Shown here piece after piece: positions 8,061 to 28,897 of a stretch of 64,000 nt of DNA. The notes under the pieces are model-generated. The model was not told where the DNA came from, made no database searches, and was given only the letters and a program-made list of their open reading frames with translations. This DNA comes from Paramacrobiotus metropolitanus. Lineage: Eukaryota; Tardigrada; Eutardigrada; Parachela; Macrobiotidae. The number at the start of each line of letters is the position of its first letter. The stretch's first letter is position 1. The stretch is taken from assembly GCF_019649055.1 (NCBI RefSeq), contig NW_026570229.1, positions 1,116,001 through 1,180,000 of the forward strand. The letters are read 5' to 3'. A program made the translations under genes and the position numbers.

Positions 8061-8322
8061 AAATAATGGTGCGCATTTTTGGAGTGGTACGAAATGGGCC
8101 ATAGGTGTGATAAAGGGGAGAATATTGATTAACGGGCGGAGTTCCTACGGTGGATAAACAATGCGACCGCTAGTGAGTAACGGCGGAGTTATATGCTGCA
8201 TGACAGTAACTTACATCATGTGCTGGGTCTGTACTCGGTCTGCATAATATCGCCTAATATAGTCAGTGAACGATTGTTTTCATTGTTTTGAAAGCGCTTG
8301 ACTCGAAGCCAGTCTCAGTAAA

Positions 8323-9099: not shown

Positions 9100-10602
9100 C
9101 TAAATGACGTGCAGATACGCTTCCTGCATGATCCACTCGTCGAGACGATCGTCGATGCGGAACCAGCACTCGTACAGACCGGCGTCCTTCCATGTGACAC
9201 TGTGGATCGTCATCGTCGAGTTGCACTGACCTTCATAGGCGCCGTACCCAAAGCTTCCATAAAATCCCCACCAATAACTGGTCTTCTCGGCGACTTCCGG
9301 AATTGATCTGGCGACAAGTAAGTAATTTCCAGCGCGCCACAGGAAGCGGGTTTTGAGGTATCCGGGAAGGAAATTGAAGCGTACCGCGCAGACCATCTCC
9401 GCTGGGTCGCCGTAGCGGACGGTAATGTTCTTCATGGGCGGATTGAAGACGTTGTGGCGGAAAAGGGTCGCGCTGACCCAGTAGCGCTGCGTCGCCACAT
9501 ACTCGCTCCCGTTGAAGTACTGGCACTCGTACAGTCCTGTGGCCGCGTACGTAAAATTCGGCAGCGTGATGGAAAACGCACCCGTGGTCAGATTGATCAT
9601 TTCGGCCTGCACCTTAAAGTCCGCCGGATCGTAGTCTGTCGTCCAGTTGCAACAATAATTCACCTCCTGCCCCCGTCCCATGTTTACCGCAATGCCCTGA
9701 AAAACGGGAACCTGCCATTCGTTGCGTGCGAACGCCGGCGGATTCCGAATGTCGTAAGCCTGTTAGTAATGCAGACAGTTAAACCATGCTGTATTTTTTG
9801 CCTCGCAATCGTTATTAGGATAATTAGGGCTAAGAAAATCTGATTCGGAAAACCAAATTAACACGAACACCTAAAGGGCATTCAAGAATTGCTAGATGTG
9901 CCATAACTAAACCGACGATGCGAATCTGACTGTGGAAAGCAAACCAACCTATTCGCCAGGCAAGCGACATAACATAATAAAATTGCTCTTTCACTACCAA
10001 GCACAACGGACGGTAAACAAAGAGCGCAGAAGAGGGGACAACAAGGTAATTAAGTATTCACTGTCAGCAACCATAATTTTCTGCGTGAAACTGGACTATG
10101 CCCGGTTTAAACCGGTATATCAGATTATTGCGGAAGTATTCTGCTTATTTCCAGCCGACTCATTTGCCTGCGACTCTGCACGCGCGCGCGTCGTCTTACG
10201 GTACGAGTTACCACAAATCGGGCAATATTACAGCCTTCAAATGCCACACTCACCTTTGGTGTGTTGTTAAGGTTGTTGTTGCAGGGAATCACCAGTGTGC
10301 CACCCTCTGGGGCTCTGATAACCTCCGTCCCCGGCGGCCATTCCGCGATTGGGTATCCCTTGTTCGACGGACCACGGCCGTAACCCTGCAGATGCATGGT
10401 TCCGCTCCCGTTACGTTGTTTTGCTTCGTTCAAGACCCGATTCACTACGACGAAGAAATAACTCAAATAAGGCAAAAGGGGCGTAAAATAAGCGCCGCAG
10501 CGCGCCACTGCAAGATCCTTTGGTTACACGAAGCTGCGGTCATACTTTGTACGGCACGTACAGACACAAACTACCTAAAATAGCTAAATACAGCGGATGC
10601 AT
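9100..10602 (-). CDS. Secreted protein with two immunoglobulin-like domains
   Basis: Proposed exons on the minus strand are 10602-10575, 10507-10254 and 9759-9100, with GT-AG junctions and matching phases (1, 0). The last acceptor follows a TACTAACAG branch-like motif. The product is about 313 aa. The N-terminus is hydrophobic (MHPLYLAIL, then PLLPYLSYFFVVV), consistent with a signal peptide. Two Ig modules are marked by an early Cys and the F-strand patterns TGLYECQYF and AGLYECWF; WRAG in the second is a plausible C-strand Trp. At least six Asn-X-Ser/Thr sites are present. There is no C-terminal membrane segment: it ends LHVI-stop. Role unknown; secreted recognition or adhesion is inferred from the fold. 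Exon 1 is the least certain part. Confidence 0.75.
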
Positions 10603-10974: not shown

Positions 10975-11435
10975 TGACATGCTATACGGAAGTCGCACCG
11001 ACTACCGTACTCGATGACCAACCATACACAGTCGATAGTGACTCGGTACAGTGGGAATACACTCTGGACTCCGATGAGTGGTCGTACACAAACAAACTAC
11101 TTCCGCTAGGTACTACGGATGTGCCTAACGAAAGCTACCGAAACCCAAACACTCAGGAACTTCCCAAATGTTTAATCAACAAAACAGAACGCACTTCTAC
11201 CAGAAGGTCACACCAACATTCTAGTAAAACCTAACTTCTCAGTCTTCAGACTCTCCTCACTCGTCAAGCCAAAGACTCGAACACCTCCTCAACACACTGA
11301 ACATGCAACGAGAATCGCTAATGGAATTAGTGATCAAATGCGTTAGATAAGAACAGCAATCGTACGTAACAGAACAGATAACGTACGTCACAGCACGTAC
11401 GTACGTAATACACGCTTTCTACGCACAGCGTGTTA
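10975..11435 (-). repeat. 3' LTR of the retrotransposon
   Basis: Nearly identical to 15725-16185; three substitutions by eye. On the plus strand it begins TGACATGC and ends GCGTGTTA. It contains a GTACGTAC-rich stretch near its right edge. Confidence 0.92.
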
Positions 11436-11442
11436 CCCCCAC
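11436..11442 (-). promoter_or_regulatory. Probable polypurine tract edge
   Basis: On the minus strand the bases AGTGGGGG abut the 3' LTR, the expected place for plus-strand priming. Short and inferred from position. Confidence 0.45.
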
Positions 11443-12439
11443 TGCGCGGAATTAACGTCCGCGTTAATTAACAGCAAAACAAATAAAACCAAAACCAAGT
11501 CAAAGAAACACTCAAAATCCAGGAAAAGTACCGTAATCCTGGAGGATCCATCGCATCATCCGTGCATCATCATCCGTGTGTGGAATCCGGGGTATAACGG
11601 GGGTTCGAAGAGCGGTCCAAATCAGCGATCCGTTCACGTCCTCCGGAGTTCCTGGTTCCACACGGGTTCATCATCATCCATCCAAACGTTGAACTTTCCA
11701 TCCGTTCCATCCATGAGTTTTTCATCCATCCTCTCCCTCCATAGAGCTCAAGGATGCACAGTCAAACAGGCCAAACACATCAGAAATGGCACGATTTCTG
11801 ATACAACTGGCCACCGCAATCAATCAACAGCACACATCAAAAAGGATAAATAAAATCCATTTTACAGCATCTTCAAAGTGCACCATAAAGTGAAAATCAA
11901 TTTTCGCTTATTACTGGCACTCACCCCCACTGCAAGCTTGCACTTGCAGTCAAACGATCAAACGAAATCTGAACCAAGCAAATCACAAGAACCAACACAA
12001 TTGTACGGTTCTTGTAACGATCAAGCAACCTCGGCCATTACAGCCATCCTCATCCAGAATAAACTCAGGGATGATCAATCAGAACTGGATTAAACGCATC
12101 TAGTTCTCAACCAACAAACAGTAAACTGTACTGTTTACAACTGCAGAAATTGAAAATGATATCAGAGAATCATTCTCGAAAACTGCCAAAACTGCACCGC
12201 AGCAAAGCACGTAACTGCAACACCGGCGGTTACGGCACAACACACCAAGTACTTACACGATAAGTACTCGTACTAAATTTCAATTTTATAAACAGTCATA
12301 ATCATCAACTGTTTACTATCAATCACCATTACAATCACCATCCCCTTTTTGCTGATTAATTCTGCGGCTGCGAGTAAAGCAAGTTACTGTCAACACACCC
12401 GTGACAGAAACAGCGGACTCACAACGTTGCATTCATAAC
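11443..12439. other. Non-coding 3' interior of the LTR element
   Basis: About 1 kb between the truncated pol-derived reading frame and the 3' LTR has no domain. It includes CATC/CATCC-rich sequence at 11550-11740. Confidence 0.5.
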
Positions 12440-13378
12440 TTAAACGTGAGCATGACAATGCACACATTCTACTCCCATTTCCCACAACTGTGCATTCATT
12501 CCCGGCCAGTAATAATTCCGTAGAATATGCTTACGTACTGACCAACAATCATGCAATTTACCAGCATGATACCTATCATGGCATTCTTGTAACAGGTCCT
12601 GACGGCTTACTTCCGGTACGACAACACGGTGTCTACCGTATCTAAAGCCCTTGCTACGGTACACGATGCCACGATAAATGTGAAACTGTTTTACATTTAT
12701 TTGTTCATCCCGACTCATTTCTGCTTCGGGATTTTCAATCAGAAACTTTAGACGCTTATCATAAGCACATCTTGTCTGCTTCTGACGCCAGCTTCCGCGA
12801 GCCTGAGCACCCCCACTGCGAAGCGAGTGTCTCATTGGACGGCGTACCGAGCTCAACTGATCTTGGGCAGCTACGCTCTCACGGCAAGTTTCCTCCCGTG
12901 CAGCAACTTTCTGTGCACGTTTAACCTGCACACCGAAAGAATTAACTTCCGGTTTACGCATCAAACACAACCCCAAATTATTACTTTCGGGATTTGTCCC
13001 TGTCGACTTTCTCATCATGTAAGCCTTGACAACATGATCAGGCGGTTCAGCCGTCACAGGCTTCCGTGGTTCAGTGCTGGTACACTTCTTACCAACATGT
13101 GCACCATGACACTTGAAACAAATCGGCTGTCCGTCTGGGAAATACCACTTCGCGTAATTAATGGTAACCTGCTTACCATTATCACTTGCAGTCCCACCGG
13201 ACTTCTTCAACTCACTAACAATGGCCTTATCTGTACTGTTGTTAGCATCACTTGGCTTCCTGCCACTGAACTGCTTCTCATCCGAGTAAATCGAACCCGG
13301 ATTACTATTCCGCAGTTTAAACTGCAACTTCAGTTCTGACAGAAATTCTTCTACATCTGTCACTCTTTTTTCTTCCAT
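12440..13378 (-). pseudogene. gag zinc knuckle fused to integrase H2C2 finger (deleted pol)
   Basis: A 312-codon frame. A CCHC-type knuckle (CFKCHGAHVGKKC) is followed within about 150 residues by an integrase zinc finger (HDRYHAGKLHDCW ... CVHCH), then a stop. In an intact Ty3-like element the protease, reverse transcriptase and RNase H lie between these parts and the catalytic core follows the finger; all are missing here. The deletion keeps the frame open across the join. The frame differs from the gag frame just upstream, from which it is separated by about 30 bp and a stop. I do not propose a repaired protein. Confidence 0.75.
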
Positions 13379-13407
13379 GTACTTAAACCAACTGAAACGA
13401 TTCTTCT

Positions 13408-14058
13408 TTAAACCTGCTTCAAATAGTACACACGTTCGGATTCGCTCAAGTCTAACTTTTTGAACGAAGTCGTGAACCCGTCAAGATACGAATTCGGAGT
13501 ATCGTCATTATTGAAATGACGATCGGCTACCTTATCGCGAACAGCCATCAAATCTTTCTCATCCGAGAAATGTTCTCGGATCATCTTCCACTCGGACCAC
13601 TTCAACTTCTTACTTGAATCGTACTTATCTAAGTACCAGGTAAGCGCCGTACCAGTAAGGCAGCGCGACAGGCACTTACTGATGACGTCACTGTCAGCCC
13701 AACTGTTGTGGTTCTTACAGTTATCCACACTTTGGATAAACTGTTCAACCTTATTAGTATCCGTTTTTCCATCAAACTTTTCAGGATACATCGTATCCGT
13801 CCTGAACGCGCCCTTCATCGCGCTAGTAAACTTCTCCATATCGAATGGAGCGGAAACAGTACTACCGCCCTTGATCTTCTGTTCCTTCAATCGACGATCA
13901 AGTTCAGCTACCTTTGCTTCCATTTTGGCCAAAGCAATTGTGCTGACTTCAGATATCGTAGGTGAGGGACTGCGCGACTCACCCAAACATATCTGAATAT
14001 TATGAGCACGTTCACGCAAATCCAGAAATTCATCCAGTTTGTGGTTATCCTTAACCAC
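13408..14058 (-). CDS. Retrotransposon gag core
   Basis: A 216-codon frame with the retrotransposon-gag signature (LTGTALTWY, then YLDGFTTSFKKLDLSE). It lies between the coiled-coil frame at 14225-15229 and the zinc-knuckle frame at 12440-13378, in a different frame from both. These breaks may be mutations or recoding. The region opposite in the plus strand (13682-13996) is a shadow. Confidence 0.75.
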   Translation of the reverse strand: MVKDNHKLDEFLDLRERAHNIQICLGESRSPSPTISEVSTIALAKMEAKVAELDRRLKEQKIKGGSTVSAPFDMEKFTSAMKGAFRTDTMYPEKFDGKTDTNKVEQFIQSVDNCKNHNSWADSDVISKCLSRCLTGTALTWYLDKYDSSKKLKWSEWKMIREHFSDEKDLMAVRDKVADRHFNNDDTPNSYLDGFTTSFKKLDLSESERVYYLKQV

Positions 14059-14224
14059 AAAGACGGGCTTCTGAATTGCACTGTACAGCTTTCATACAGG
14101 ATCAGCCGCATCCTGTACTACAAAGCTGCGTCGATCTGCCTCAACATGCGGAACAAAGATGACGTCATCATTAACTGAATGTCGTCTATTATTCCGATCA
14201 GCTTTAAACATGTCGACTTTAGCT

Positions 14225-15229
14225 TTAAAAAGCTTTCTGCTCAGTTAGAAACTTTTCATTCTTCTTATTCAAAGCAGCTGTGCCTTCTTGAAAACTTTTC
14301 TGCGCCTGCTGCTTTTCCAACTGGAATTTCTGTTTTTCCAGTTGCAACTTCTTGCTTTCTTTATTGACATGCTCGAACGCGTCCTGCATTAACTTTGCAT
14401 CTCGCGTACGCATAATGCCAAGCAATTTCACCTGATCAGCAAACTTGTTATTGCGATCAACAACATCGTCATATCTTTCGATTAAATCGTTATACTTTCC
14501 AGTTAATTCATCATGTTTCAAAATGAGCGCATGATATCGAACCTTTTCTGCATCCAACTCTTTACGTAACTGATCAACCATGATAGTGGTTGATGACTCA
14601 TCGCCTTCTTTGGCAACAGACTGACTGTAGTGCAAATCAGCGGCATTATCGCGCTGATAATCAACACCATGCAGTTCTAACTCAGTATTGTTATCATCTT
14701 GATTAACTTCAACAGAACAATCTGGAGCATTATTTATCTGCTCCAACATCTTATTCATCGCAGTCAGGTCCAGATGCTGATTTACCGCGGTATCCTTCGC
14801 AGTACCATCCACGTCACTGGCTGACAGTGCATTGCCCTCACTGACTGTAGATTGCACAGCAACGCTTTGCTGCACATCCGACCCTGGATGAGCTGCTTTG
14901 CTGCTACCTGCTGCAGACGTATCCGGCTTCTTACGAGCAAGATGCTGCATCCACTTACCATGCAGTTCAGTGCCGTACTGCTGATCGTAATCATGCAAGG
15001 TCAAATGGATCGTTCTACGGGCGGGAATCTTCCTTCCTGCCTGGATCCACTGATCATAACCTCCAGGTTTTTTACCACCTTTTAAATCATATTCAACCCA
15101 CTCCTGGCTTAACTCACCAGTACGAGGAAGAACAATTTCCCACTTCTTACAAAATTCACCAACCTGTTCGTCTTCAGGGAGAAACCATTGCACTATAGGC
15201 GGAGACAGATAATCCGCCTTTTCCAGCAT
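14225..15229 (-). CDS. Retrotransposon gag-type N-terminal protein with coiled coil
   Basis: A 334-codon frame on the element strand, starting MLEKADYLSPP about 500 bp after the 5' LTR. Its second half is strongly charged and helical (KYNDLIERYDDVVDRNNK, EKQKFQLEKQQAQK), typical of gag assembly coils. I recognise no enzyme domain. It stops before the gag core frame. Confidence 0.65.
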   Translation of the reverse strand: MLEKADYLSPPIVQWFLPEDEQVGEFCKKWEIVLPRTGELSQEWVEYDLKGGKKPGGYDQWIQAGRKIPARRTIHLTLHDYDQQYGTELHGKWMQHLARKKPDTSAAGSSKAAHPGSDVQQSVAVQSTVSEGNALSASDVDGTAKDTAVNQHLDLTAMNKMLEQINNAPDCSVEVNQDDNNTELELHGVDYQRDNAADLHYSQSVAKEGDESSTTIMVDQLRKELDAEKVRYHALILKHDELTGKYNDLIERYDDVVDRNNKFADQVKLLGIMRTRDAKLMQDAFEHVNKESKKLQLEKQKFQLEKQQAQKSFQEGTAALNKKNEKFLTEQKAF

Positions 15230-15489
15230 GGCTTCGACTCTTCAACTCTAATCATCCCTTTTCGTCTGGATGATTTACTTTGCCCAGTTGATGGCTCTTC
15301 TCTACCCTACTCCTGTCCAGCAGTTAATGCTGATGGTTCAGACAGTACACCATCCATTTCACCTGCTTGACAAACACAGACACGAAATCCAGGTCAACGT
15401 ACCCGGATGCAAGTCTGTCCGAATAACAAGGCTTACGCCACAACTTCTCAGTACACACCGTACCAATCAACAGTACAAGAACAGATTAT

Positions 15490-15625
15490 GGACTCCCGTC
15501 CTGCACCTGGCTCGCACTTAGGAACCGTGCCTCGCGTGACCTTCTGAAGTCACTGCGGTAACAAACTGCGGTCTAGCACGTGGCTCTCACTTAGGAACCG
15601 TGCCTCACGGGACTCTCTGAGGATC
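15490..15625. repeat. Imperfect direct repeat in the LTR-element leader
   Basis: The block CACTTAGGAACCGTGCCTC occurs twice about 73 bp apart, between the 5' LTR and the first reading frame. A packaging or leader structure is possible; function unknown. Confidence 0.6.
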
Positions 15626-15705
15626 CGCGTGGCCAACCAACACAACCAAAACCAAAACAAAGAAACCAGACACTTACCAGACGATCCAGAACTCCCAAGG
15701 GTTGT

Positions 15706-15724
15706 TAAAATCCGGAAGGCGCCA
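15706..15724 (-). promoter_or_regulatory. Putative tRNA primer-binding site
   Basis: On the minus strand TGGCGCCTTCCGG directly follows the 5' LTR end (ATGTCA). TGG at this place is complementary to a tRNA CCA end; TGGCGCC matches the start of lysine-type primer sites. The tRNA identity is not proven. Confidence 0.55.
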
Positions 15725-16185
15725 TGACATGCTATACGGAAGTCGCACCGACTACCGTACTCGATGACCAACCATACACAGTCGGTAGTGACTCGGTACA
15801 GTGGGAATACACTCTGGACTCCGATGAGTGGTCGTACACAAACAAACTACTTCCGCTAGGTACTACGGATGTGCCTAACGAAAGCTACCGAAACCCAAAC
15901 ACTCAGGAACTTCCCAAATGTTTAATCAACAAAACAGAACGCACTTCTACCAGAAGGTCACACCAACATTCTAGTAAAAGCTAACTTCTCAGTCTTCAGA
16001 CTCTCCTCACTCGTCAAGCCAAAGACTCGAACACCTCCTCAACACACTGAGCATGCAACGAGAATCGCTAATGGAATTAGTGATCAAATGCGTTAGATAA
16101 GAACAGCAATCGTACGTAACAGAACAGATAACGTACGTCACAGCACGTACGTACGTAATACACGCTTTCTACGCACAGCGTGTTA
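15725..16185 (-). repeat. 5' LTR of the retrotransposon
   Basis: Pairs with 10975-11435. The three differences are cgatag/cggtag, aacctaac/aagctaac and gaacatg/gagcatg. Confidence 0.92.
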
Positions 16186-16367
16186 GTACTAATATACGCA
16201 ATCTTTGTCGCCTTTATTTTAGCATCATAAGAATCTATGAATAATTCTACTGAATGTCGTTTCGTTTTATGGTCGAAACAAATCTGTGAGTGCGAAGAGA
16301 GGACGATAAAAAGTCAGACAGCAATACACTAGCGGAATCTCCATTACACACTACACAAAATGCCTGG

Positions 16368-16441
16368 TGTAGCGGTCTCATTAGCAGCGCCGTCAGATTA
16401 GCAGCAAGGAAAGTTTCATTGGTGCTGTTGAAAGCAATGGG
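16368..16441 (+). repeat. Left terminal inverted repeat
   Basis: Starts TGTAGCGGTC. The outer 21 bases are identical to the right end; it then shares several blocks, with TTAGCAGC repeated inside. The preceding 5 bases CCTGG are repeated after the right end. Confidence 0.88.
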
Positions 16442-16607
16442 AACGCCTACGCTACGCCCCTTTCTGGATCCAAACAGCACTGCAGATACTTACTGCTGCT
16501 GCTATCATTCTGGGTAGTGACGCAATATTTGCGTAGCAGTTGCTATTGCTGTTTATTTTCTTGGCTGAAACAAATAATTTATAAAATAATGTGATTTGAA
16601 CTTTTGC

Positions 16608-19600
16608 ATGACAATGGAAGAGAGGATTATATTTTGCAAAACTGCTTTGAGTTCTTTGTGTGAAACAGCTCGAACGTGTTCGTCCGGTTTGTATGTTCAA
16701 GCTGCAGCAATATGGGAGGAACTGGGTTCTCGGGGTTTCACGCTTGATTCCTTGAACTATCTGGATGAACTGAATCCAGGACAGACCGCAACTGAAGAAA
16801 CAAAGCAACTCAGAGCTCTTGTTCCTATAATCTTTGACACGTCTCGCGCACTCCAGACCACGGGTGATGGAAACTGCTTTTCAACGCTTTGGCGATACTT
16901 GGGAACGGTACAGAAGCACTAGCAGTTGAGTACCGGCTTAGAACAGCTCTCTGCTTGATTTTGGAAAGAGAAGCTTTAATTATTCACCCAAATGATCAAA
17001 AGATTCTTGTTGTCGCTTCGAGAAACACCAGAAGACATTAGTAGCATCTCTTGCACAGTTTTGTGCAGAGCGGCATATGTCAAATTTGCACCTGAAGTAT
17101 GTGGATAAAGAATCTCTAGAACCAGTAACGCGCAGAAACAATATTTCTGAAGATTGTATTTGGATCCTGCCATCGGAAATGTACGTACCGTGGCTTGATG
17201 AGCATGCTGTGAAAATTACCCAGGATTGTAGCTGGACCTGCTATATGTGGATAATTGCTGCTGCGGTTGCGCACGACAATAATATTATCATCATACGCCC
17301 GCAGGTCAGTTTGATCTCAAGATCAAATACGGAACTCAATAACAAGATTTCGTTGCTGTTATTCACATTGCATCTTTTACAGGGCTATCATTCGGTGTGG
17401 GTCCGCTGTAGAACCGATAAAGCAAAAAAGCCGTGGTGTTTGTTTTGGGAAAACAACCATTTTTCTGCCGTGCGACTCGACCTTTTCGCTAACGGCATTC
17501 TTTTGGAATACCTTGATTCTTTGGAAGCAAAAGATAAATCCCAACTGACTGAAGTTGAAGTGTGGTGCATCTGCGATTTTCCAAATATGGTACGCTTTCA
17601 AGAGCACTCACTCTTCCTTTCAACAAATAGCACTGCCGAACATGATCAGGATGTGGTCGATGTACCGGAAACCATAAACCAAGCAGAGGAAGTTTTTGCT
17701 TGTGAAAAGCGACGCAAACCTTTATCTACTACGATTTTATTCAAGAAAGGATTGATGAATTCTTATACCGCCGACATAATGGAGCCAAAAGGTCAACTAT
17801 AGTCTATAAAAATGCATTTTTTAATATCATTGTTTTTTTCTTAATTGTTGCTTTTTAGGCTCTGGTTTTGCTGGTGACGTCGCAGCAGAAGGTAAAAAAA
17901 TTAAAGTTAAAGTTTCAGTATGATTTTCACGTTAAATTGCTATAGAAGAACGAGTCTTTGGAATTGTGACGCATCTGTTCCAAGGTCAGTTGGACTCTTC
18001 AAAATTTTCCGTCCGAGGTTTTATCAGCGACGCAACAATATCAAAAATTGAGCGCCTTACAAAAAGATTGAAAGATAAAGATGTAAGCAGTAATTTCTTG
18101 TTGTGATCTCAAGATCAAAACTAACACCTACTTTGGAAATTTAGGCACTCTCACTAGAGGAACGAAATCTTCTGCGGTCGCGATCACGTTTTTTTTACTT
18201 TGGAAAGTTATCTGAAGAAAATTATAGGTTTCGGTATGACGATCTGGGAAATTTGCTGTACAAGACCAAGCCATGTCAGGAGAGAGTGTTCTGCCGCTTC
18301 CGCAAGGCTTTCGAAATCGTATGGAGGAACCATCTCTCTCCATCGCTGACATGTGCGCCAAAAAGCGCAAATCTATTGGCAAAGCAGTCGCTTCGACAGA
18401 TATACTGCCCCTACGCCAAGACCGTTGCGGCTTCTATAAAAGATATTTGCAAGGGCTGTCAAATTACTCGCCAGGCTAAGCCAGTCCTGCCGTATGTCCC
18501 AAAAATAATTCGAGTTCATGAAATAATGGAAAGGCTGCAAATCGATTTGATCGACATGGCGCCGGACTCTGATGCCGGGATGCGATTGAACTATGCTGAG
18601 TATCGTTATGTGTTATCTGTTACGGAATGTCTAACGCGGTACTGTTTTTTGTATCCTTTGCGATCTAAATCCGGCCAAGAAATGCGAAAAACCTTGCAGC
18701 TTTTTTTTATAAATGAGGGCGGCCCACAGCTGCTTCATAGCGACAATGGAAAGGAATTTGTCAATAAGCGCGTTAAGGAGTTGTTAGAACCTGCTGGAAC
18801 CGTTTTTGTTCACGGTGCACCATACCATCCACAATCTCAGGTTTGCCGTGTAGTAGCGTTCTATGTTCCTCAACCATTTCATTTTGTTTACTAGGGACAA
18901 GTTGAACGGCTAAATCAAAAAGTGAAACGTGTTTTGGCTCATCTTATGGCTAACACGGATGCCGCTTTACAAGCGATCGCGTGGCCTTACTTGCTTCCAA
19001 CAGTTCAGCGGATCCTCAATTGTACTGACCACCATTCCATTGGTATGACACCGTTCGAAGCATTTAAAGGATATCCCTCATTACCGGATGGAAACGAATT
19101 TGGCATCGGTAAACGTAGTGAATATAAGAATTAATAATATGCAATACCCTTGATTAACGCTTTGATGTAACTCGCAATCATGTGATCTCAAGATCAAATA
19201 AAGTTTTATTTCTCTTAGAACTGGACCCTATCGAGCCGAACGAGTACCAACTGGACATGCTACGGAACCTCACTCCGGAAAAAATTTTGACGAAGAAGAA
19301 GAATTTCAAACCATTGAAGAAGTTGAGCAGTACGAAGAGGATTGCGATGAAAATATTGCTAGCCATTTAGACCGATTAGAAAAACTACCGGAGCCGGTGC
19401 GTTCCCATGCTTTAACTGGGCTGGAAACGCTTGCATTTCGTCGGGCCTGTGTCAGAGATACGATACTGGAATGTGTGGAGCGGCGTTTTTATCGCAACGT
19501 TTACAAGCCCGCAGTAGCATCTCGCAAAGTCTCCATTGAAAAAGGTGACATATTTCTTTGGAAGCCGACGTTTCGAAAGAAGCCTAAGAGCAGCGCACGG

Positions 19601-20305
19601 ATTCGTTCAAAAGTCGTAAGAATAACTGAAACTTCACGCACACTCCCGGGTCGGTTTAGGATTGAGTATTACGGGAACGGCGACAGAGATCCGCCATGCA
19701 GAACTGCTGAAAACGCAAAAATGTTCACAGAAATGTATGTCAACGGGAAAGAGCTTCTTTTTAGCAGAAAATCGCAAAGCAATGTAGATATTTCGGATTC
19801 AACGACTTTGGCTTATTCTGTGCGTGATGACGTATGCCAGACTGCTCCAACCAAAGAGGAAATCGAAAAACTGATACCAGACTTTGCCGACAAGATGCGA
19901 CAGTATTTCAAAGAAAACGGATTTCTGTCGAAAGTAATTCCTAAAGATTTGCCATCAACTTTAGAAATTGAAACGTATTTTGGTTTCCTAGAAAAGATTG
20001 CTGGTGAGCATTACAAAGAGACACACTGTCCGGGGTCAAGCATTCTGGATGCGGCGCTGCAGGAGCTGTATCAGATGCGTCAGGAGAAGGACATTGGGTG
20101 TTGGATGAGTGGCCTTGAGAAATGGGAATGCTTGACTAAACGAGACTGCTACAAGATTCAGAACTACTTAGCTGGAAGTGACATGTATCACAAAGGATCG
20201 TGTCTAGACTGCCTTGGTGGTATTTCAGGCTGCACTCATTCTTGCTGCGATGACCTTTTACTTAAAATCTGCGCTAGACGCGGTGGTACTTTTGTGCCAA
20301 TTTGA
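16608..20305 (+). CDS. OTU protease-integrase fusion (transposase), with frame breaks
   Basis: Exons are 16608-17304, 17383-17791, 17859-17891, 17946-18082, 18145-18840, 18895-19108 and 19220-20305, with consistent phases. The OTU domain shows the Cys motif GDGNCF and, after intron 1, the His motif WENNHFSAV. The integrase has a zinc-finger tail (ICKGCQ) and a DDE core: LQIDLID, LHSDNGKEF and QGQVERLNQ, followed by IGMTPFEAF. The C-terminus is Cys-rich (KGSCLDCL ... CTHSCC) and may bind zinc. Three apparent frame breaks exist: near 16900 (one base short in a G run), near 17000-17060, and at 19280-19285 (one base short in an A run). Homopolymer position suggests sequencing error or recent decay. 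The catalytic residues survive. Introns 1, 4 and 6 carry the palindrome. Confidence 0.8.
17310..17327. promoter_or_regulatory. Palindrome site 1
   Basis: TTTGATCTCAAGATCAAA, two inverted 8-bp arms around CA, in intron 1 of the OTU-integrase gene, just after the splice donor. Confidence 0.85.
18104..18117. promoter_or_regulatory. Palindrome site 2
   Basis: TGATCTCAAGATCA in the 62-bp intron between exons 4 and 5 of the OTU-integrase gene, just before a CTAAC branch-like motif. Confidence 0.85.
19183..19196. promoter_or_regulatory. Palindrome site 3
   Basis: TGATCTCAAGATCA in the 111-bp sixth intron of the OTU-integrase gene. Confidence 0.85.
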
Positions 20306-20325
20306 TAAGAATTTAAACTCGACTT

Positions 20326-20339
20326 TGATCTCGAGATCA
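20326..20339. promoter_or_regulatory. Palindrome site 4 (perfect palindrome)
   Basis: TGATCTCGAGATCA, fully self-complementary, 20 bp past the OTU-integrase stop codon. The only copy outside an intron. Confidence 0.85.
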
Positions 20340-21200
20340 GACAATGATTGCAAATCTCAGTTTTCTATTAAAAGCCACTGCACTACCGTTTAGCACTGTT
20401 ATATCTGCAAATCATTACGGCTTGTAATCTATACAGCGTCTAACTAACGTGCCTCTAACTAAGGTGCCTCTAGACATACTAGATTTAGGTACCGGATAAA
20501 GTAAATAAAACAATCCGGACATAAAACACAAGAAAAAAGTTCTACAAACGCCTTGATATGAGCGAGGGTATCAGAACATTACATGATTTGGAGTACAGCT
20601 TAGATGATAGTACTCTGTATTTGTCAAAACTGCAAATAGTACGAGAATTTTCGAACTCTTAGGGATTGTTCAAACGACGAAGCTCTGAGCGGTTTTGCCA
20701 GCACCAGTGATGGGTTACTGAGTAGACAATAAGTAAGAAAAAGTTACTCAGTAAACAGTAGCGTAATATTAAGCGTTCAGTAACCAATAACGTTTTGAAT
20801 CTGAAGTAAGAGTAACAGTAAGTAAGGTTTTTAAAATAATATTAAAAGTAAGTATAAAGTAATTTGCTCATCTTCGCGCTTCGCGCGAAATTTGCTTCCT
20901 AAAACATAAGTTTTAGTTATTAGTACTTGGCTTACTAAGTAATGTTTTGTAATTAGTAAAGAGTAAGTAAAAGTAGCGTTTGCGGCAGCGAAAAAGTAAC
21001 AGTAAAGTAAATCAAAAGTTTTGCAAATTATCTTTCCAAAAAGGGCAGTGGCACTCTGCGTACCCGGCGAAAGGTCATGACTTATAAGCTGCCTGTCACT
21101 GACGCTTACGAATAAGAATTGTGGCAGGGTGCGATAAATCATATGCAGCCGAAAAGACTCGGTCATCTTTTGCATTCCGTTCATAATTCAGCACTTCAAG
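20340..21200. other. Non-coding stretch between integrase and cadherin relic
   Basis: Simple AGTAAGTAA-like sequence is frequent at 20700-21020, and TCTAACTAA-GTGCC is duplicated near 20440-20470. A minus frame at 20831-21184 has no domain I can recognise. Confidence 0.4.
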
Positions 21201-24200
21201 GATTTCGGACCACGTTCAAAAGGTAGTTGTGCAGGTCGTCGACATCGGTCATGACGATTTCAATGCTCCTACAGGAGTACAGGAGCTAGCGTCCTCGTCG
21301 TTAATATCCAGAACCTGGAAAGCGAATTTATATAATTGCGCACTTGCTTCGAAGAGGCAGAAACATCGTATGACTGTATAGTATAAAAAGATCATAGAAG
21401 CGCTATAAGTTTACATGACAGAGCACGGAACTTTGTACAGGTGGTTGGTGTACAGGTTGTCGTACGGACCGTACGGTGATTCGACTGTAACGGCAAAAAC
21501 GAAAAATGCTTTGCAGAGGCTTACATCAGTTTCCACAATCATTGTCGAAATGAGAGCCGGTACGCCGCTGTCCACTTCCATAACTTTCACAACAATTTTG
21601 CTGTCCATCTCTCGATCTATCGTCGTTTCCAGCGTCAACCATCCGGATTTTGGATCTAACGCAACTGGCAATTGTGACGCGTTGACAAGGTCGTAGCGTA
21701 TCATCGCATTCTGCCCATAATCCATATCATACGCCGAAACTGGAATTAATCGGACCGGAGCGGTGTAGTTCTCCGGCGTCTGGACGGTGACCTTATCGGC
21801 GAAAAACACGAGCGCATTGTCATTCTCATCGTTAATACGGGCCTGAAACTCCACATGGCTGACCAACAGCGGATTGTCTTTGAACGTCGCCTGTACGAAT
21901 ACTTGTTCTGCGCTTCAAAACCCAGTTCCTTAAACACAACGAGACGGCCGTCTTGGCGAATGGAAAACGGCAGTTCAGTTTGGTTTAACGCCGACGGGGG
22001 TATCACGGTAAAAATGACTGGCTAAGGTTATTTCAGTTTCACGGTCAGCAGAGTTGCGTTCAGTGGAGCGCTCTCGTGGATACTAAAAAGATACAGCAAC
22101 TGGTCGATCTCGGGCAGAATGTTTGTGTTATCCACCACGAAAATTTCGACAGCCACTGAGGACCACTGCAAAGGGCTTCCTTCATCCGATGCATCGACGA
22201 AAGAGGACAACGTCTCGTTTGTGAATTCTGCAATAAATAAATTAGGTGCAACACATGCAACGTTAATTTTTGTTTTCGCGAGTTTAATTTCATAACTATA
22301 CTAGTATCTTCGACTAAACTTTAAATCATGCAGCACGTGCATATACATGTACCGTGTCACCGTGAACACTGTCAATTCAGTTAATACGGATCCGAGTCAT
22401 CCGACACTTCGTTCGGCATGTCTTGAATTGTCTTCGTTAAAAATATATGATATGATAATTTCTGTTGTCTGCCTTACCAGTGCCAAAAGGTTTCTTCAGT
22501 TTAATTATGCCAGTTCGGAAGTCGATGTAAAATAAATTAAAATGTCTGGAATTCTCTGAACTGATGCTATACACAACGGAACCATTCTGTCCAAGATCTC
22601 GATCGGTCGCCTCAACCTTCATGAAAAAAACAATTCTTAGCGCTGTCATATTTGAGCAATCGTTCTCACCAATCCCCTTCAGTATGGCTGCATCAGCAGC
22701 AAGGTTATCGAAGACAGTGACAGTGTAAGTCTTCTTACAAAGATTGGCGCTTCATCGTTCATATCTGCAACACAAATTTATCAATCAGTTATTTGTTGGG
22801 GCACGTAGAAAGAGGTGGGTGTGTTGAAGCTTAGCAGAGATAAATTTAAATATTGCGGTTAAGTACCGGTGAGAGTTATGTTGACTTGACAAAAGTCACG
22901 TAATCCGCCCAAATCTACCGCCTGAATCCAGAATAGGTAATCAGCTTGACGCTCACGATCCAGATTACCAGCCACGGAAATGATAGGGCTCTCGGCGTCA
23001 ACAACAAAACGATCGTCACAATGGAGTATCGCAGCTGACCATTGCGTCCAGCGTCTAAATCACTGGCCCGAACCGCACCGATGACACTGCCCAGTGGGGC
23101 ATTTTAAGCAGTAGTTAATGCATAGAATGGCCAGTCAAACTTTGGTGAATGGCGATTGGAAATGACCGGAAGAATCTTCACTTGAGTACACGCGACATGT
23201 ACACCGTCCGACGCGGAAATATTCAGCTGGGCAGAACTCCGCAGGAAACCCGTTGCTCCAGAGAAAAACGCAACTATTCCTAAAGTACCACTCTGTTACC
23301 ATTATGCTGTTTTTTATTCTAAAGATTATGGGCTTTTTTTGCATGTATCTACGAGTATATATGTATTTTCGAAGCAAACCATAAAAATTTAAGTATAATG
23401 ATGTTATCTTCAGGCAAATTTAAATACAATAGTTTTAGATTTTCACAAATGCCTTCGGCCAATGGTGTTAATTGCCAGAGTTTAGTACCTTGTCTGTCGA
23501 TGGTAAAGAGGCCGGTTGGACTTTCCTTACCGATAAACAAGTTTATTTAGTCATTTGTATCTCACCTTTCACTACGACGCGCAGGGTCATGGCTGAGCTG
23601 CGGCGAGGATGGCCGGCATCTGATACGATTATCGTCAGGTCAAGTTGGTCAATCATCTCGCGATCCAATTCGTTAATCAGATACACTGTGCCGCTAGTGA
23701 AACCAATCTGGAAATAAATCGCCGGCTTTGAACTCGTCCGCACCGCTAAGGCTCTTCTTGATGCCGCATCGGAAAACACATCTTCATCCGATTTCCGGTT
23801 GCGAATACGGCTTACGGTTACACGTGCAGCGTCTTCCGAACATTGCAGACTGAAGGGAAGTTCCGCGTTCTCGCCGCTATCGGCATCGGATGCCACAGGC
23901 TGACAGATTTCTTTTTTCCATGGTGTAGTCTCGGCTAGTTTGATTGTTTGAAGGTCACTCCATCTAAGAACCAATTATTTCATTAGCACTGTAATATTTA
24001 TTCAATGTCTGAGAAATATTTCTTATTGAAAAAATTCGGTAAATTGTACTAATCAGATATATTAAGAAACTGAAAGTTTGTTTGGTTCATGTTTAATGTA
24101 CACGTTAATTATAGCTCATTTTTGCATTGTGTCAGTCGAGAATGTCAACAAATACGACAATATCCGAGTATAAAATTTCCCATTTGGCCGGATCCATGGC

Positions 24201-25180
24201 ACGTACACACAGCGTAAAATGTTTCTGTAGTTCGAAGAATCGAAGTCAACCGGCTCCAGCAGACGAATCACTCCTGTAATTACTGGCGCTATCATATTTC
24301 CGTTAGTTCACTACTCATATCGGCAATATCGATACATGATGTGAAATCAATGTCAAAATTGTTGAAGCGGTCGCCCTCCATGATAGTGTAGACGATCTCC
24401 CGGGAAATGTTGACCAAGCCGGCATAAGTCGCACTGACAGTAAGAAGCAGTGTCCCGACTTCGGCGGCTTCCGATACACTGGTGCGGTACGTATTTTGCG
24501 GGAAAAGTGGCACCGTATCCGCCACGATGCGAAGGAGAACGGCGGCGTCGGAATGCAGGCTGATGTTACCACTGTCGCTCGCACGAATAGTATACGAAAG
24601 TTCCTGTGTTAACTCCTTTTCGGTCAAATCCTTCGCCAAACTCGCATCGCCGGTGGAAGAGTTTATTGATATTAACGGCTGGTTTAAAATCACTGAGACT
24701 TATTACACCCTTCTTCCTCTCGTCCGCATCGGTTGCGGTCACCTAAAAAGCATAATAAAATTAATATAAATCAGCTAACAATTTATCGCGTATTTGTTAT
24801 ACTAATTTTATAATCATTAATCAGCGCTTAAATCATGATAGGTTCAGGCATTAATTACTTTCCCACAAGTAAACCTTTTTTGCCGTAAACCGGTGTAGCC
24901 ATTACATAAACAGAATCGTTAAATTTGGGCGGATTATCGTTTTCATCTAGCACAGCACAATTTGATTTCCGTGCCCGCTTTTTGTTTGTGGCCTCGGCAA
25001 AGCTGACAGCTTCCATAATAAGCGTTATCGTTTTCGCCTGCTCCCGATCGAGCGAAACATTTGTGGTCGTCATAGTCCCTGTCAACGAAACGACGACTAT
25101 CCAGAGATTTTCAATCATCATTTCATACCGGATATTTTCCCCCAAAAGAGAATCAGGCAATGAAAGACCACATTTCGTAA
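21200..25180 (-). pseudogene. Decayed cadherin gene (several EC repeats)
   Basis: Minus-strand fragments carry cadherin-repeat signatures in order: DENDNPPKF and NVSLDRE (24855-25160), INSSTGD (24292-24693), INELDRE and DADSGENA (23543-23974), ATDRDLGQNGSVVYSI (22437-22649), INDENDNA and TIDRE (21411-21866), and VLDINDED near 21290. Lesions are plentiful: single-base shifts near 24670, 24220, 23030, 22730 and 21890, and two in-frame stops (TAA, TAG) near 22020-22030. No membrane segment or cytoplasmic tail is found. It lies inside the transposon but has none of its palindromes, so it is probably host-derived cargo or a nested remnant. Functional cadherins mediate calcium-dependent adhesion; this copy cannot encode one. 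Confidence 0.85.
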
Positions 25181-25388
25181 AACTGATTTCAGTATGTAAT
25201 TACCCATCGTTGATTTATTCCGCACAGTGTGAGCGGGATGTGCTACTACAAAATTTACCTGACAACAGTATACATTCAAGTTTCACATAAAAAAGCTCAA
25301 CAAAATATTGAAAGTCTAGCATATACATATAAAATTCAAACTAAAGAACAAAGTGCTAACAGGGCATCAAATCAACAATTTGCTCGCA

Positions 25389-27950
25389 TTATTCGAGAAT
25401 CTCACTGAATTTTTCGATATCAATGCTGACAATTCCCAACTTGTACTTGTACCAGGTTTTATCAATAAAATAAACCTCATTTTTGTGAAGAGAAACCCGT
25501 TCCTGTTTAGAGTAGTCTCGTTTTCCTTTCTCCAAAATGCCGAACGAATCGGTGGTGATCATCTGTGTAATGCGATCGATTTGACCATCATGATACAGGG
25601 TACGTTTTCCATCCAGGAAGCACATGTGCCGTACGGAACTCACGATTGAATGAGCCTAAATGGCAATTACAGTTACTACGCTTAATTACTTATTAAGTTT
25701 GAAGACTAAATACTTACGAACTGTTTTTCGAGCCGCATGAATGGGAGTCGACTGCCCTCGGACGGCGTTGGAGAACTTTGTCCAGCGCTGCTTGCCTTCA
25801 AATAACATTTCTTGTGATCTCAAGATCAAACTTAAGCAGTCTGAATTTTAACTACTTTATAAAATCTAGAGTTGAATGTGAAACAATGGTTTAATGCGTA
25901 CCTCTATCGCCCGAAGTTTTGCAAGCATTTCCTCTTTCTCTTTTCGTAGGTTCACCAATTCTTCCGATATGGTGACAAGAGCGGTCTACAAAAACAGTTT
26001 GTAGCTCGAGTAACGCTTGACATCTGGCGTTTTGCATTAAAGCTGCCTGTGATCTCAAGATTAGATGTCGCATTTAAAATTACCTTCTCCTTCTGTAGGT
26101 TTGAAAGCGCTTCATCTCTTGCCTCACGCATTTTCTTCAGTTCTTTAGTGAGGTTGTTAGCGGACATCTACAAACACACGCATATACACCAGCTCCAGAA
26201 CAAAAAGGTGCTTTAGCTTATTGCGTACATGTTCTTTCTCAAAACTGGACAGCGCTTCCTCCTTCTCTTTACGGACAGTTTCCAGTTCTTTAGCTAAGTC
26301 GCTCTGCAGATAGACATGTTGACGTTACGTTGCAAAGTAAATATTATTATTTTATGGATCAAATGTGATCTCAAGATCAATTGTGCCAAGCTTGAAACTT
26401 CAGAGGACTTACTGGTCGAGAATCCACAGTGTCAGTCTTGGGTGGAGAAATCTTTGCGACGACGTCAACCGGCGCAGCTGATCCATCGGCACTAGCAGTT
26501 TTGACTTTCTTGGCTCGGGACGAGGGAGACGAGACCGGCCGTTTGGTTCCAGCGGTAGTTGATGTCGTCGCCTTTGTAGCGGTAGCTTTTGCTTTGGCTG
26601 AACACGCAATATAGTACTTAAGCATGTACAGCGCAACAAAATTCAGAAATTCATACCTGCTTGTTTTAACGCCGTTACTGGGGCATAACTCCTTTGAGCG
26701 ATTGCTTCTTTCAAAACTTTTTTAATGACTTCGTCGGTTTTCAAAACGGTCTTGATATCTTTAAAAACAATTCCACGGTGCTTAGCTTCACGTACTTTTC
26801 CCTCGACCTTAACTTTTTCGCTCTTGTCTGTTTCAAAAGGAACGTCAGCAAAACCGTCTCCGCTTTCCACGGCAGTCATGAATTCTTCCACAACGGCCCA
26901 CGTATCAGCTGGAAGTCTGGCACATTCCAAGAAATACCGATGCGATGCACTCACATTCTGCAAAAGGATGAAACCCGGGCGATTATACAGTTTGATCCCA
27001 GGATCAGATATGCAACTATGGTAAATTTTGATAAATAAATACTCGTTAACGGCGTTTTGATCCCAAGATCAAACGGAAAATCTCTTTCTCACCTGAATCG
27101 ACGTAACGGCAGCAATTTTTCGATTGCAGTTAATGACGACCGATTTATCATTATTCACTTCTACAGATTCATCGCCAATATCTTCCTGGTGCATAAAACA
27201 AATATCCCGAAACAAGCGGCAGAGGTCCCATATAGTCTCTTGGCGCTGGTTATTGACAGATTCTGCCTTTTGCCGCGCTAGACGCATGCCGGCATATTTT
27301 GACAAAGGCTTGTACACTTTCACAAGTACTTCGCTTTGTTCTGACCACGTCGAATCCTTTTCTTCAGCAAGTTCTTTCAAGGCGCGCAAACGGTGGTTAC
27401 CTATAACAATTGTTGAATTCTGATTTTATTATTGCCAGGGCTGACACAAACATTACCGTCAATAATATACACGGGAATGCGATTCTCTTTGACTGCTTGT
27501 ATAATGTCCTTGTCCAAAGTTCCATCGGGCTGCGCGTCAATGATTCCCGTTAAAAAGATGGACTGCGAAGACGGAGCTTTATCGCGAAAAGTTTCCTTGA
27601 AAGATTCCAAGTGCAGTGGATTTATAATCCGAATTCGGTGCTTTCCCTTAACAGCGTTGAAGAGATTATGCAGCGGCAACGAAGCTTCTCTTACTACAAA
27701 ACAGGTGGAATCAGACTAGCAATGTGATCTTGAGATCAAACAACCAGTATTTCACATAATCATTAGCTTGATGCGCAACATACTCAGAACTTCTTCGCTT
27801 TCCAGGGCAAGCTTCTCGTGGATTCCGCCTGATGACTCATCTCCTGAAGTTCCAACCGCTCCACTAGACTGCAAAGAACAACTTGCGCTTCGAAAGCTGG
27901 ATAACGAAGAATTTGCAACTGTTTCTTACCTGATCAGATGATAGCGCCAT
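25389..27950 (-). CDS. ParB-like domain protein with coiled coils, 574 aa, transposon-borne
   Basis: Eleven exons: 27950-27930, 27868-27784, 27693-27457, 27400-27093, 26957-26657, 26597-26413, 26303-26229, 26167-26084, 25985-25902, 25795-25718 and 25655-25389. They sum to 1725 nt in one unbroken frame with consistent phases, which argues for a functional gene. Residues about 45-140 look like a ParB/Srx-type fold: INPLHLESF, then IIDGNHRLRALKEL, resembling ParB box II (GERRxRA). A helical stretch with ARLPADTW follows, in the place of the ParB DNA-binding helices (inference). Next come a Ser/Thr/Lys-rich segment with a basic nuclear-localisation-like patch (RAKKVK), three similar 25-28-codon coiled-coil exons (REKEEAL, REARDEAL, REKEEML type) and a globular tail (YFIDKTWYKYKLG). 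Palindromes occur in five of ten introns. Confidence 0.8.
25815..25828. promoter_or_regulatory. Palindrome site 5
   Basis: TGATCTCAAGATCA in intron 9 of the ParB-like gene. Confidence 0.85.
26050..26063. promoter_or_regulatory. Palindrome site 6 (one mismatch)
   Basis: TGATCTCAAGATTA in intron 8 of the ParB-like gene; one arm has a single change. Confidence 0.8.
26366..26379. promoter_or_regulatory. Palindrome site 7
   Basis: TGATCTCAAGATCA in intron 6 of the ParB-like gene. Confidence 0.85.
26993..27006. promoter_or_regulatory. Palindrome site 8 (variant)
   Basis: TGATCCCAGGATCA in intron 4 of the ParB-like gene. T-to-C in one arm is nearly balanced by A-to-G in the other, so the inverted symmetry is kept. 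Confidence 0.8.
27058..27071. promoter_or_regulatory. Palindrome site 9 (variant)
   Basis: TGATCCCAAGATCA, 65 bp from site 8 in the same intron of the ParB-like gene. Confidence 0.8.
27725..27738. promoter_or_regulatory. Palindrome site 10 (core in opposite orientation)
   Basis: TGATCTTGAGATCA in intron 2 of the ParB-like gene. The two-base centre is inverted relative to sites 1-3 and 5-7. Confidence 0.82.
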
Positions 27951-28165
27951 TATGATACAGGGTTAGCGGTTCTCCAGGCTCTTTTAGCAGATAAAATTCT
28001 TCACGTCTTTAAAGGGCCAACGCTAGGCGTGCTGTCGACCACGCTTCAGAACACCTTGCCCGTGATATGTCAACACCTTCTCAAAAAAATTGTCTTAGAT
28101 AGCCAGTTTGCACGAGTTTTCAGCTGTGTGTGTGCGCATAGAATCCAGAAACGTAATGCACAAAC

Positions 28166-28273
28166 CTGTTCGTTAATCCGTCTGGACAGAGCTGGGGACA
28201 GCCTGACGAGTTGGTGGAACCGCTGCTCGTCACCGCAGATCTCCGCAGTCTTGACGATCCTAGCTTTCAGACA
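28166..28273 (-). CDS. Possible single internal exon near the right end of the transposon
   Basis: Thirty-six codons flanked by an AG acceptor and a GT donor on the minus strand; composition is coding-like (RIVKTAEICGDEQRFHQL). No ATG exon or partner exon is established and no domain is recognised. It could be an upstream alternative exon of the ParB-like gene or chance. Confidence 0.25.
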
Positions 28274-28689
28274 CTGCAATCATGGGGCATTATTTAGTAT
28301 GAGGGAAGGAATGAGCTCGCCCGTAGCGAAGCATGGAAGCATGGTAGTGGAAAGAACTTTGAATGCTCAGGCTCGTGAATCGGCAGAGAAATAATGCACT
28401 GTCACGAAAAGATCAAAGGAGACCTACCAAGGCTCACGATAATATACGGACAACACCTGCGGCACGACGCATCCAGCTCAGAAAAGAACGTTTGAAAGAT
28501 GAATTTCAAATTTCACAAGAGTATTTGAATAATTCGCTAAAAATTCTTTGAAATTAAAAACTATAATTAATGCAGAAAGCATGAAAGTGAGCGAATACGA
28601 TTAGAGTTGAAACACAATGCAGGGTACGGCGGCGCTGCTGTTGCTAATTTGCAACTTGGACGCTGCTTGGTGACTGACAGCAATTCCAA
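28274..28689. other. Subterminal non-coding region of the transposon
   Basis: No gene is supported. GCTGCTG/TTAGCAGC-like words increase toward the right end, as they do inside the left end. Confidence 0.4.
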
Positions 28690-28763
28690 CCCCATTAACT
28701 TAGCAGCACCAATGGAAACAAGCCTGCTGCTAATTTCGCTGTGCTGCTAATGAGACCGCTACA
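28690..28763 (-). repeat. Right terminal inverted repeat
   Basis: The reverse complement begins TGTAGCGGTC and matches the left end at 16368. It is followed by CCTGG, the repeated target site. Confidence 0.88.
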
Positions 28764-28897
28764 CCTGGTTTCACCTAACAGCGACTGAATAATCGGGGAA
28801 ATGAAGCATGAATCCTTAACCATGCTGTTCTAAGCTAGATTCGAGATTCATCTTGTGCGCGAAGGCTCTTTCACGTGTTAGGTCCAAGCAGACTTAC

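Follow-up and report, generated by a model that had tools for sequence, protein, structure and literature searches.

What does a short palindrome do when it recurs ten times within one animal transposon, each time outside readable exons? The question is raised by a stretch of 64,000 nucleotides of the tardigrade Paramacrobiotus metropolitanus (contig NW_026570229.1, positions 1,116,001 to 1,180,000; the window hereafter), which contains a large transposon, element A, with a DDE integrase gene, a captured piece of a cadherin gene and the spliced gene of a 574-amino-acid protein (Table 1). A sequence-only reading of the window had described this protein as ParB-like and had linked it with the palindromes in a self-recognition, bridging or segregation system. 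Analysis of the window and of the genome revealed that the array is real, lies outside readable exons, is present in all seven elements of two families and their short relative, and differs in its arms family-wide. The balance tips slightly towards an operator array that would be read by a protein of the element itself, with the ParB-like one as the likeliest candidate.

Element A carries ten dyads of the form TGATC-N4-GATCA, nine with exact arms and one with a single arm mismatch, and just one further dyad within one arm mismatch was found in the rest of the window (51,000 bases). When element A was shuffled 300 times with its dinucleotides preserved and searched for repeated palindromes with 5-bp arms and a spacing of 0-8, the best palindrome reached five copies once and otherwise three or fewer, versus the nine observed. 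Across the whole window, the palindrome with up to three mismatches gives 20 strand matches versus 6.2 expected, a count reached by 0 of 100 shuffles. In the 170-Mb genome, a search for the exact 14-mer gave 22 strand matches, and its reversed control gave 0; six matches fall in each of the three A copies (18 together), two in a short element at C33, and one each at C8 and C11, where the 3-kb stretches around these single 14-mers contain no A- or B-type ends. Nine exact-arm dyads are present in every one of the three A copies. The ten sites, which had been described as 14-bp palindromes in the gene arms, can now be placed more sharply: none overlaps an exon, nine being intronic (in eight of 16 introns, one of which holds two sites) and one lying 20 bp past the end of the integrase frame. 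With sites treated as independent, the chance of such exon avoidance is ~5e-5 for the element without 20686-24710, and ~1e-7 for the nine sites inside gene spans. The conserved core reads T-N-TGATCT-NN-AGATCA-N-A and the flanks are near 0 bits; conservation ends at the dyad, which indicates that no larger repeat gave rise to the sites. On this pattern, the dyads almost certainly form an operator array.

A search of the genome with the protein brought up a sister family, B, whose three copies (C3, C2 and C11) share the convergent gene order of element A; identity to A is ~50% for the integrase and 28% for the ParB-like protein. Family B has 11 dyads with different arms, TGGTC-N4-GACCA, of which eight are exact and three have one mismatch, and the maximum in 300 shuffles was four copies versus the eight exact ones observed. 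Exact dyads number eight in each of two B copies and seven in the stretch of the third copy that was examined. Among the B exons read (a list made by eye, in which the OTU-like part counts as a single block and 9620-10394 is left open), none is overlapped by any of the 11 sites, one of which (7070) sits in the convergent gap. Neither family contains the dyad type of the other (TGATC in B, TGGTC in A), even with one arm mismatch allowed; all exact sites show a symmetric arm difference, with A versus G on one side and T versus C on the other. The B-type pattern occurs at 15 places in the genome, 12 of them in B copies, and its reversed control at 18; this count shows no excess, so the evidence for B is the clustering and not the genome count. 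A relative that kept the protein and lacked palindromes had been set beforehand as the observation to count against a pairing of the two; family B keeps the protein together with its own, symmetrically changed array. This family-wide difference gives the idea of self-recognition good support at the DNA level.

Dyads also accompany A-type ends on a non-autonomous element of 2,816 bp at C33:877677-880492, which is flanked by the duplication ACAGA and whose two ends resemble the A end at 88% and 81% (80-88% over estimates). In tblastn searches (E values up to 1), neither the ParB-like protein nor the integrase of A matched this element, which also shows no DNA match to A beyond the ends; it has four exact-arm TGATC dyads at element positions 316, 396, 2127 and 2182. 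A-type ends are thus found on four elements (three A copies and the C33 element) and B-type ends on three, and seven of the seven carry the array of their own type, which points to a DNA-level signal that accompanies the ends and not to the splicing of two particular genes. No dyad lies within the terminal 300 bp of A, B or the C33 element.

An intron comparison of A and B, made by eye from splice sites and phases, matched eight introns by place and phase, of which four have sites in both families, three in neither and one in A only; eight matched introns are too few for significance alone. The shared site-bearing introns are, in A, 17305-17382, 18083-18144, 19109-19218 and 26958-27092, the last of which holds two sites 65 bp apart, as its B match does at 64 or 65 bp. 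The introns free of sites in both families are 18841-18894, 27401-27456 and 26598-26656. Together with the symmetric arm difference, the shared site-bearing introns suggest that the positions are partly old. If the positions are partly old and the arm has changed throughout, a single trans-acting reader would be the simplest cause.

The intronic location of nine of the ten A sites is also what would be expected if the dyads were RNA elements, that is, hairpins that aid or regulate splicing of the element's own transcripts or bind an RNA-binding protein, with no recognition of DNA. Site-bearing A introns are longer (62-135 bp) than site-free ones (54-67 bp), and hairpins with energies of -3.0 to -8.0 kcal/mol are predicted for 20 of the 21 site 22-mers from A and B, with imperfectly paired stems in three cases. 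The exception, 26050 (-0.6 kcal/mol), is incapable of full pairing, however, and the arms are fixed in sequence beyond mere complementarity. Half of the A introns (8/16) are site-free, whereas sites also occur past the integrase stop (20326), in the B convergent gap and, four times, in the C33 element with no integrase or ParB-like match. Nine A sites have a non-palindromic centre, which reads CA on the plus strand in eight of them even though six of the nine lie in the opposite-strand gene; the centre orientation follows the element and not the transcript, as expected of a DNA-level signal. A purely RNA-level role therefore appears quite unlikely.

If the sites act in DNA, they could be ordinary enhancers for a host transcription factor. 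Dyads are common targets of host factors, and an operator-like dyad in introns would suit one. Against this, exact 14-mers outside A-type elements number just two per 170 Mb, and an arm that differs between two families in the same genome is not readily explained by one host factor, which makes this explanation very improbable. The binder of the dyads is very probably element-encoded. The integrase (or its long C-terminal part) could fill this role, with the dyads as operators or internal enhancers of transposition-complex assembly and the ParB-like protein doing something else. Both proteins are encoded by the element and both have diverged between A and B, and the C33 element retains ends and dyads, as expected of a transposition signal. 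The site-free terminal 300 bp of A, B and C33 and the spread of sites across the element body fit a chromatin or regulatory factor better, however, and the integrase, as the more conserved of the two proteins, is less likely to have driven a change of specificity. We consider the integrase an unlikely reader of the array, and the ParB-like protein probably the binder.

Excision of ten GT-AG introns, chosen by eye, from the gene of this protein yields exactly 574 residues without a stop and containing IIDGNHRLRALKEL, and the claim of an intact protein is thereby upheld. The box IIDGNHRLRAL is split by intron 27401-27456, a coiled-coil-like stretch occupies residues ~376-462, and the C-terminal domain is partly conserved in family B. 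The boxes of A (IIDGNHRLRALKEL, GNHR) and B (EILDGQHRLESILAL, GQHR) are of the GxHR kind and are not the GERR box of ParB. Pfam matches at or near the box are under the cut-off in both families: ParBc_2 (E 0.011), DUF1015 (0.02) and DndB (0.083) in a part of the A protein, and DndB (0.002-0.015) and GmrSD_N (0.0041-0.007) in B, with unrelated families of comparable strength also matching (SACK1 at 0.068 and ATLF at 0.096 in A; DUF5824 at 0.2 in B). ParBc_2, DndB, GmrSD_N and DUF1015 are families that we take to form one ParB/sulfiredoxin-like superfamily. Among PHROG families, a ParB-like one matches residues 109-142 (E 0.025), and here too unrelated families reach comparable strength. PF02195 has no Pfam match in the spliced A and B proteins; it was also not found by a six-frame genome search, a weak test given that the box is interrupted by an intron in A as well as in B.

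Profile comparison (hhalign) with three solved ParBs, using a two-sequence profile of low power, gave a score of 13.4 (E 0.41), compared with a median of 12.7 and a maximum of 18.4 for 100 shuffles; the register of the alignment is right, though not significant (IIDGNHRLRAL with IVAGERRFRAA, NNQRQ with ENLQRE). Searching solved structures with the single protein gave no ParB and matched only residues 317-476, which are low-complexity or coiled-coil-like (best E 0.0018, a plastid protein), and a search with the profile gave a myosin piece as its sole match. AlphaFold models of isolated exons are of low confidence (mean predicted local distance difference test score 50.5 for exon 3 and 34.0 for exon 11). 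Neither a helix-turn-helix family among the matches nor a Pfam match to a methyltransferase family was obtained. We class the 574-residue protein as a possible member of the ParB/sulfiredoxin superfamily and not as a ParB: the GxHR box and the marginal superfamily matches speak for the original assignment, and the box sequence, PF02195, the profile score and the parS search speak against it.

These results bear directly on whether element A could be a true parABS-like system, in which a ParB clamp would load at the dyads in a manner dependent on cytidine triphosphate (CTP), spread, and bridge copies or tether them for segregation. The box of GxHR/GERR type, the PHROG match and the right-register alignment would be in keeping with such a system, and, as in bacterial ParB-parS, a box resembling this superfamily is found with palindromes on the same element. 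Unlike the bacterial system, element A has no GERR, PF02195, parS, helix-turn-helix or ParA among its matches. The profile score lies inside the shuffled range, the window contains 0 parS-like sites within three mismatches of the consensus, and no ParA family is among the matches of the element pieces scanned, which comprise part of the reading frames. An integrated element also has no evident need of partition, and we regard a parABS-like system as most improbable. The proposed tie between the palindrome array and self-recognition thus gains from family B, which keeps both the protein and an array, while nothing supports the segregation, CTP switching or spreading that had been attached to it.

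A mechanism is proposed in which the dyads are dispersed operators that would mark transposon DNA for a dimeric DNA-binding protein encoded by the element, most likely the 574-residue protein of the possible ParB/sulfiredoxin superfamily. One trans-acting factor would read all sites, and the specificity of the factor and the sites would have changed together; many internal sites would recruit the binder over the whole element, and copies of other families would be ignored. A ParB-like protein with a coiled-coil-like stretch, acting on dimer-type sites, would in this way occupy the copies of its own family and either maintain their activity or control them. The effect would be element-specific regulation, most likely in the form of active chromatin (anti-silencing of the VANC type) or of transposition control of the TNPA type; by analogy, anti-silencing as opposed to any other regulation is a tentative proposal. 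TNPA of maize En/Spm, likewise encoded by its element, binds to multiple copies of a short motif and affects expression and transposition. Element A resembles it in combining an element-encoded protein with a repeated short motif, a putative pairing here, and differs in that TNPA motifs are subterminal, whereas no site of A lies within 300 bp of an end.

The closer parallel is with the VANC proteins. VANC21 binds YAGTATTAY, mainly in non-coding parts, including introns, of its own VANDAL family, and induces loss of silencing (PMC5735166), and VANC6 acts on other targets with other motifs (PMC5735166; PMC10398659). As in A and B, an accessory protein is encoded by the transposon, a short motif is found in non-coding parts, and the motif differs by family along with the protein; concentration of the motif in the element's non-coding DNA and its divergence with the family are both observed here. 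There are differences, too: YAGTATTAY lacks the dyad form of the A and B sites, VANC elements are from plants and not animals, and the integrase here is of Ginger type. The sites bound by VANC are in tandem repeats, whereas the A sites are dispersed apart from one pair 65 bp apart, with local pairs at 55-80 bp in B and C33. Sola1-1_Ec32 of Ectocarpus encodes a protein with ParB-like and DNA-methyltransferase parts, for which binding and modification of its own transposon has been suggested (PMC12477816). Like element A, it is a large eukaryotic DNA transposon whose transposase gene and ParB-like accessory gene are transcribed in opposite directions; it differs in being a Sola1 element of a brown alga with a methyltransferase domain in the accessory protein, and the accessible text of that report mentions no site array. 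A more ambitious version of the mechanism, that an animal transposon lineage carries a nucleotide-gated clamp of ParB fold that loads at family-specific dyads, spreads, bridges copies, shields them from silencing and tells own from foreign, with new specificities arising by concerted replacement of every site, is in our view rather improbable.

Several observations weigh against the proposed mechanism. Site positions are only partly shared between the families: matched intron 27694-27783 has a site in A alone, and several sites lie in unmatched introns (A 26304-26412, 25986-26083 and 25796-25901, a region in which B introns occur both with and without sites; B 4534-4879, with two sites). The A copies are too alike (~99.5%) to show selection on the sites, and just two divergent families were found, both in this one genome, to which the case for coevolution extends. 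The integrase is also a candidate binder, and the dyads can form short RNA hairpins, which appear in the predicted fold of four of the eight site-bearing A introns (for intron 26958-27092, one of its two sites was covered). VANC targets tandem repeats and these sites are mostly dispersed, and homology to ParB is not significant in any single test.

With regard to transposon class, element A is, by its sequence, a Ginger-like DNA transposon. It starts with TGTAG at 16368 and finishes with CTACA at 28763 (start TGTAGCGG, finish CCGCTACA), has inverted repeats of ~60-65 bp (65-nt arms 80% complementary; left versus right 84% over 60) and is flanked by the 5-bp target duplication CCTGG at 16363-16367 and 28764-28768. 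Family B has ends reading TGTAGACAGCCC[GA]TTA[GA]CAGC, an inverted match of 31-40 bp (BLAST), and the duplications ACAAG (C3 copy) and GCTGT (C2 copy). Ginger elements have TGTNR ends with inverted repeats of ~40-270 bp, a Gypsy-like DDE integrase and a 4-bp or, in TDD-4 and TDD-5, 5-bp target duplication, besides an H2C2 zinc finger and an OTU or Ulp1 domain. A and B share TGTAG ends, and both have an rve match above the Pfam cut-off with D-62-D-35-E spacing (in A, E 4.4e-13), whereas Integrase_H2C2 was not found by a Pfam scan of the A or B integrase stretch. Target duplications flank all six elements inspected, which comprise every one of the seven except the C11 copy of B; CCTGG, GCAGT, ACAAG, GCTGT and ACAGA (C33) are exact, and ACAGG/ACTGG agree at four of five positions.

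Ginger1 and Ginger2/Tdd have TGTNR ends, inverted repeats, a Gypsy-like integrase, an OTU domain (Ginger1) and, in TDD-4 and TDD-5, a 5-bp duplication (PMC2836005); the ends, repeats, integrase and 5-bp duplication have counterparts in A and B, and the OTU domain has a candidate one. The OTU domain is C-terminal in Ginger1, whereas the OTU-like part is N-terminal here. Ginger2 elements except TDD have 4-bp duplications at AT-rich RTATAY targets, versus 5 bp in A and B, which at 8-12 kb also exceed the Ginger entries of ~2.6-7.1 kb, a short non-autonomous entry aside (PMC2836005). No ParB-like gene or dyad array is reported for Ginger elements in the literature searched, which is not proof of absence in print. 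In the integrase gene of element A, the OTU-protease-type stretch TGDGNC is present and the OTU-like part is frame-broken in this copy; two N-terminal pieces of the B gene match OTU under the Pfam cut-off (E 0.014 and 0.015), and the A pieces have no Pfam match to it.

The three A copies in the genome are ~99.5% alike. Their longest pieces show 8 mismatches and 13 gaps over 4,330 bp (L001), 25 mismatches and 9 gaps over 7,067 bp (L002) and 11 mismatches and 7 gaps over 5,348 bp (L003); since insertions and deletions are nearly as many as substitutions, some frame breaks may be assembly errors. The captured cadherin piece, which contains no dyads, is whole in two of the three copies and largely deleted in L001. 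This copy lacks 20686-24710 yet retains the last part of the piece, so a deletion probably gave rise to it. A short repeat at ~20702-21200, in the interval that separates the integrase gene from the captured piece, is related to dozens of places in the genome at ~70-91% identity. In family B, the C11 copy (G000:C11:705224-723162) measures ~18 kb between its ends versus 8.2 kb in the others and probably holds an insertion. A fragment at C28 is like B positions 288-638 (85% identity) and is dyad-free over 1.4 kb, as is that part of B. The C33 element (L009/L020) has an open stretch from element position 1783 that may be another captured host exon.

Searching the genome with the terminal inverted repeat pattern gave 19 matches, 12 at A, B or C33 ends and seven elsewhere, and the reversed control gave four. 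Six of the seven other matches and an integrase-like place at C84 (7-8 kb each) showed no partner end and no dyad and were set aside as chance. The shared end pattern also matches at G000:C50:812125-812145. Profile scans of viral and genome contigs yielded 55 and 75 pattern matches, and no relative could be confirmed among them. The search for B-type ends used the left end only, and elements with other ends may be missed.

Elsewhere in the window, a long terminal repeat retrotransposon occupies 10975-16000, with 276-nt repeats at 10975-11250 and 15725-16000 (99% identity) and two minus-strand open reading frames, one for a Ty3-type capsid (13408-14058) and one with an integrase zinc finger (12440-13378), both under the Pfam cut-off. 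Imperfect direct repeats at 7490-8018 lie inside the minus-strand open reading frame 7402-8076 and repeat a SAYSLRIP-like peptide, and a minus-strand open reading frame at 9100-9681 has an immunoglobulin V-set domain. Such immunoglobulin and cadherin domains point to an animal as host; a COX1 search gave no match.

Table 1. Features of element A, with positions in the window.
Feature	Position	Strand	Basis or context
Element A, Ginger-like DNA transposon	16368..28763	.	12,396 bp
Left terminal inverted repeat, TGTAGCGGTCTCATTAGCAGC...	16368..16427	+	complementarity to right end
Integrase gene with six introns; OTU-like part at the N terminus, then DDE integrase and a long C-terminal part	16614..20305	+	splice reading by eye
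Dyad TGATCTCAAGATCA	17312..17325	+	intron 17305-17382; matched B intron has dyad
Dyad TGATCTCAAGATCA	18104..18117	+	intron 18083-18144; matched B intron has dyad
Dyad TGATCTCAAGATCA	19183..19196	+	intron 19109-19218; matched B intron has one-mismatch dyad
Dyad TGATCTCGAGATCA	20326..20339	+	20 bp after end of integrase reading frame
Captured host cadherin gene piece	21297..25147	-	90-92% identity to three pieces within C15:353148-357394
Gene of 574-residue ParB-like protein, eleven exons	25389..27950	-	splice reading by eye
Dyad TGATCTCAAGATCA	25815..25828	+	intron 25796-25901, ParB-like gene
Dyad with one arm mismatch, TGATCTCAAGATTA	26050..26063	+	intron 25986-26083
Dyad TGATCTCAAGATCA	26366..26379	+	intron 26304-26412
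Dyad TGATCCCAGGATCA	26993..27006	+	intron 26958-27092; 65 bp to next dyad
Dyad TGATCCCAAGATCA	27058..27071	+	intron 26958-27092; matched B intron has two dyads 64-65 bp apart
Dyad TGATCTTGAGATCA	27725..27738	+	intron 27694-27783; matched B intron without dyad
Right terminal inverted repeat	28704..28763	-	complementarity to left end

In plants, transposons are documented to counter silencing in a sequence-specific manner. If the operator array is what we propose, family-specific sites in one genome, together with a relative that consists of ends and sites only, would provide a clean system for the evasion of silencing in animals. The array would also be a system in which to follow how a protein and some ten dispersed sites change specificity together. 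Should the fold of the 574-residue protein be confirmed, ParB-like accessory proteins, which in the published excerpts are reported from algal transposons, would extend to an animal element of Ginger type.

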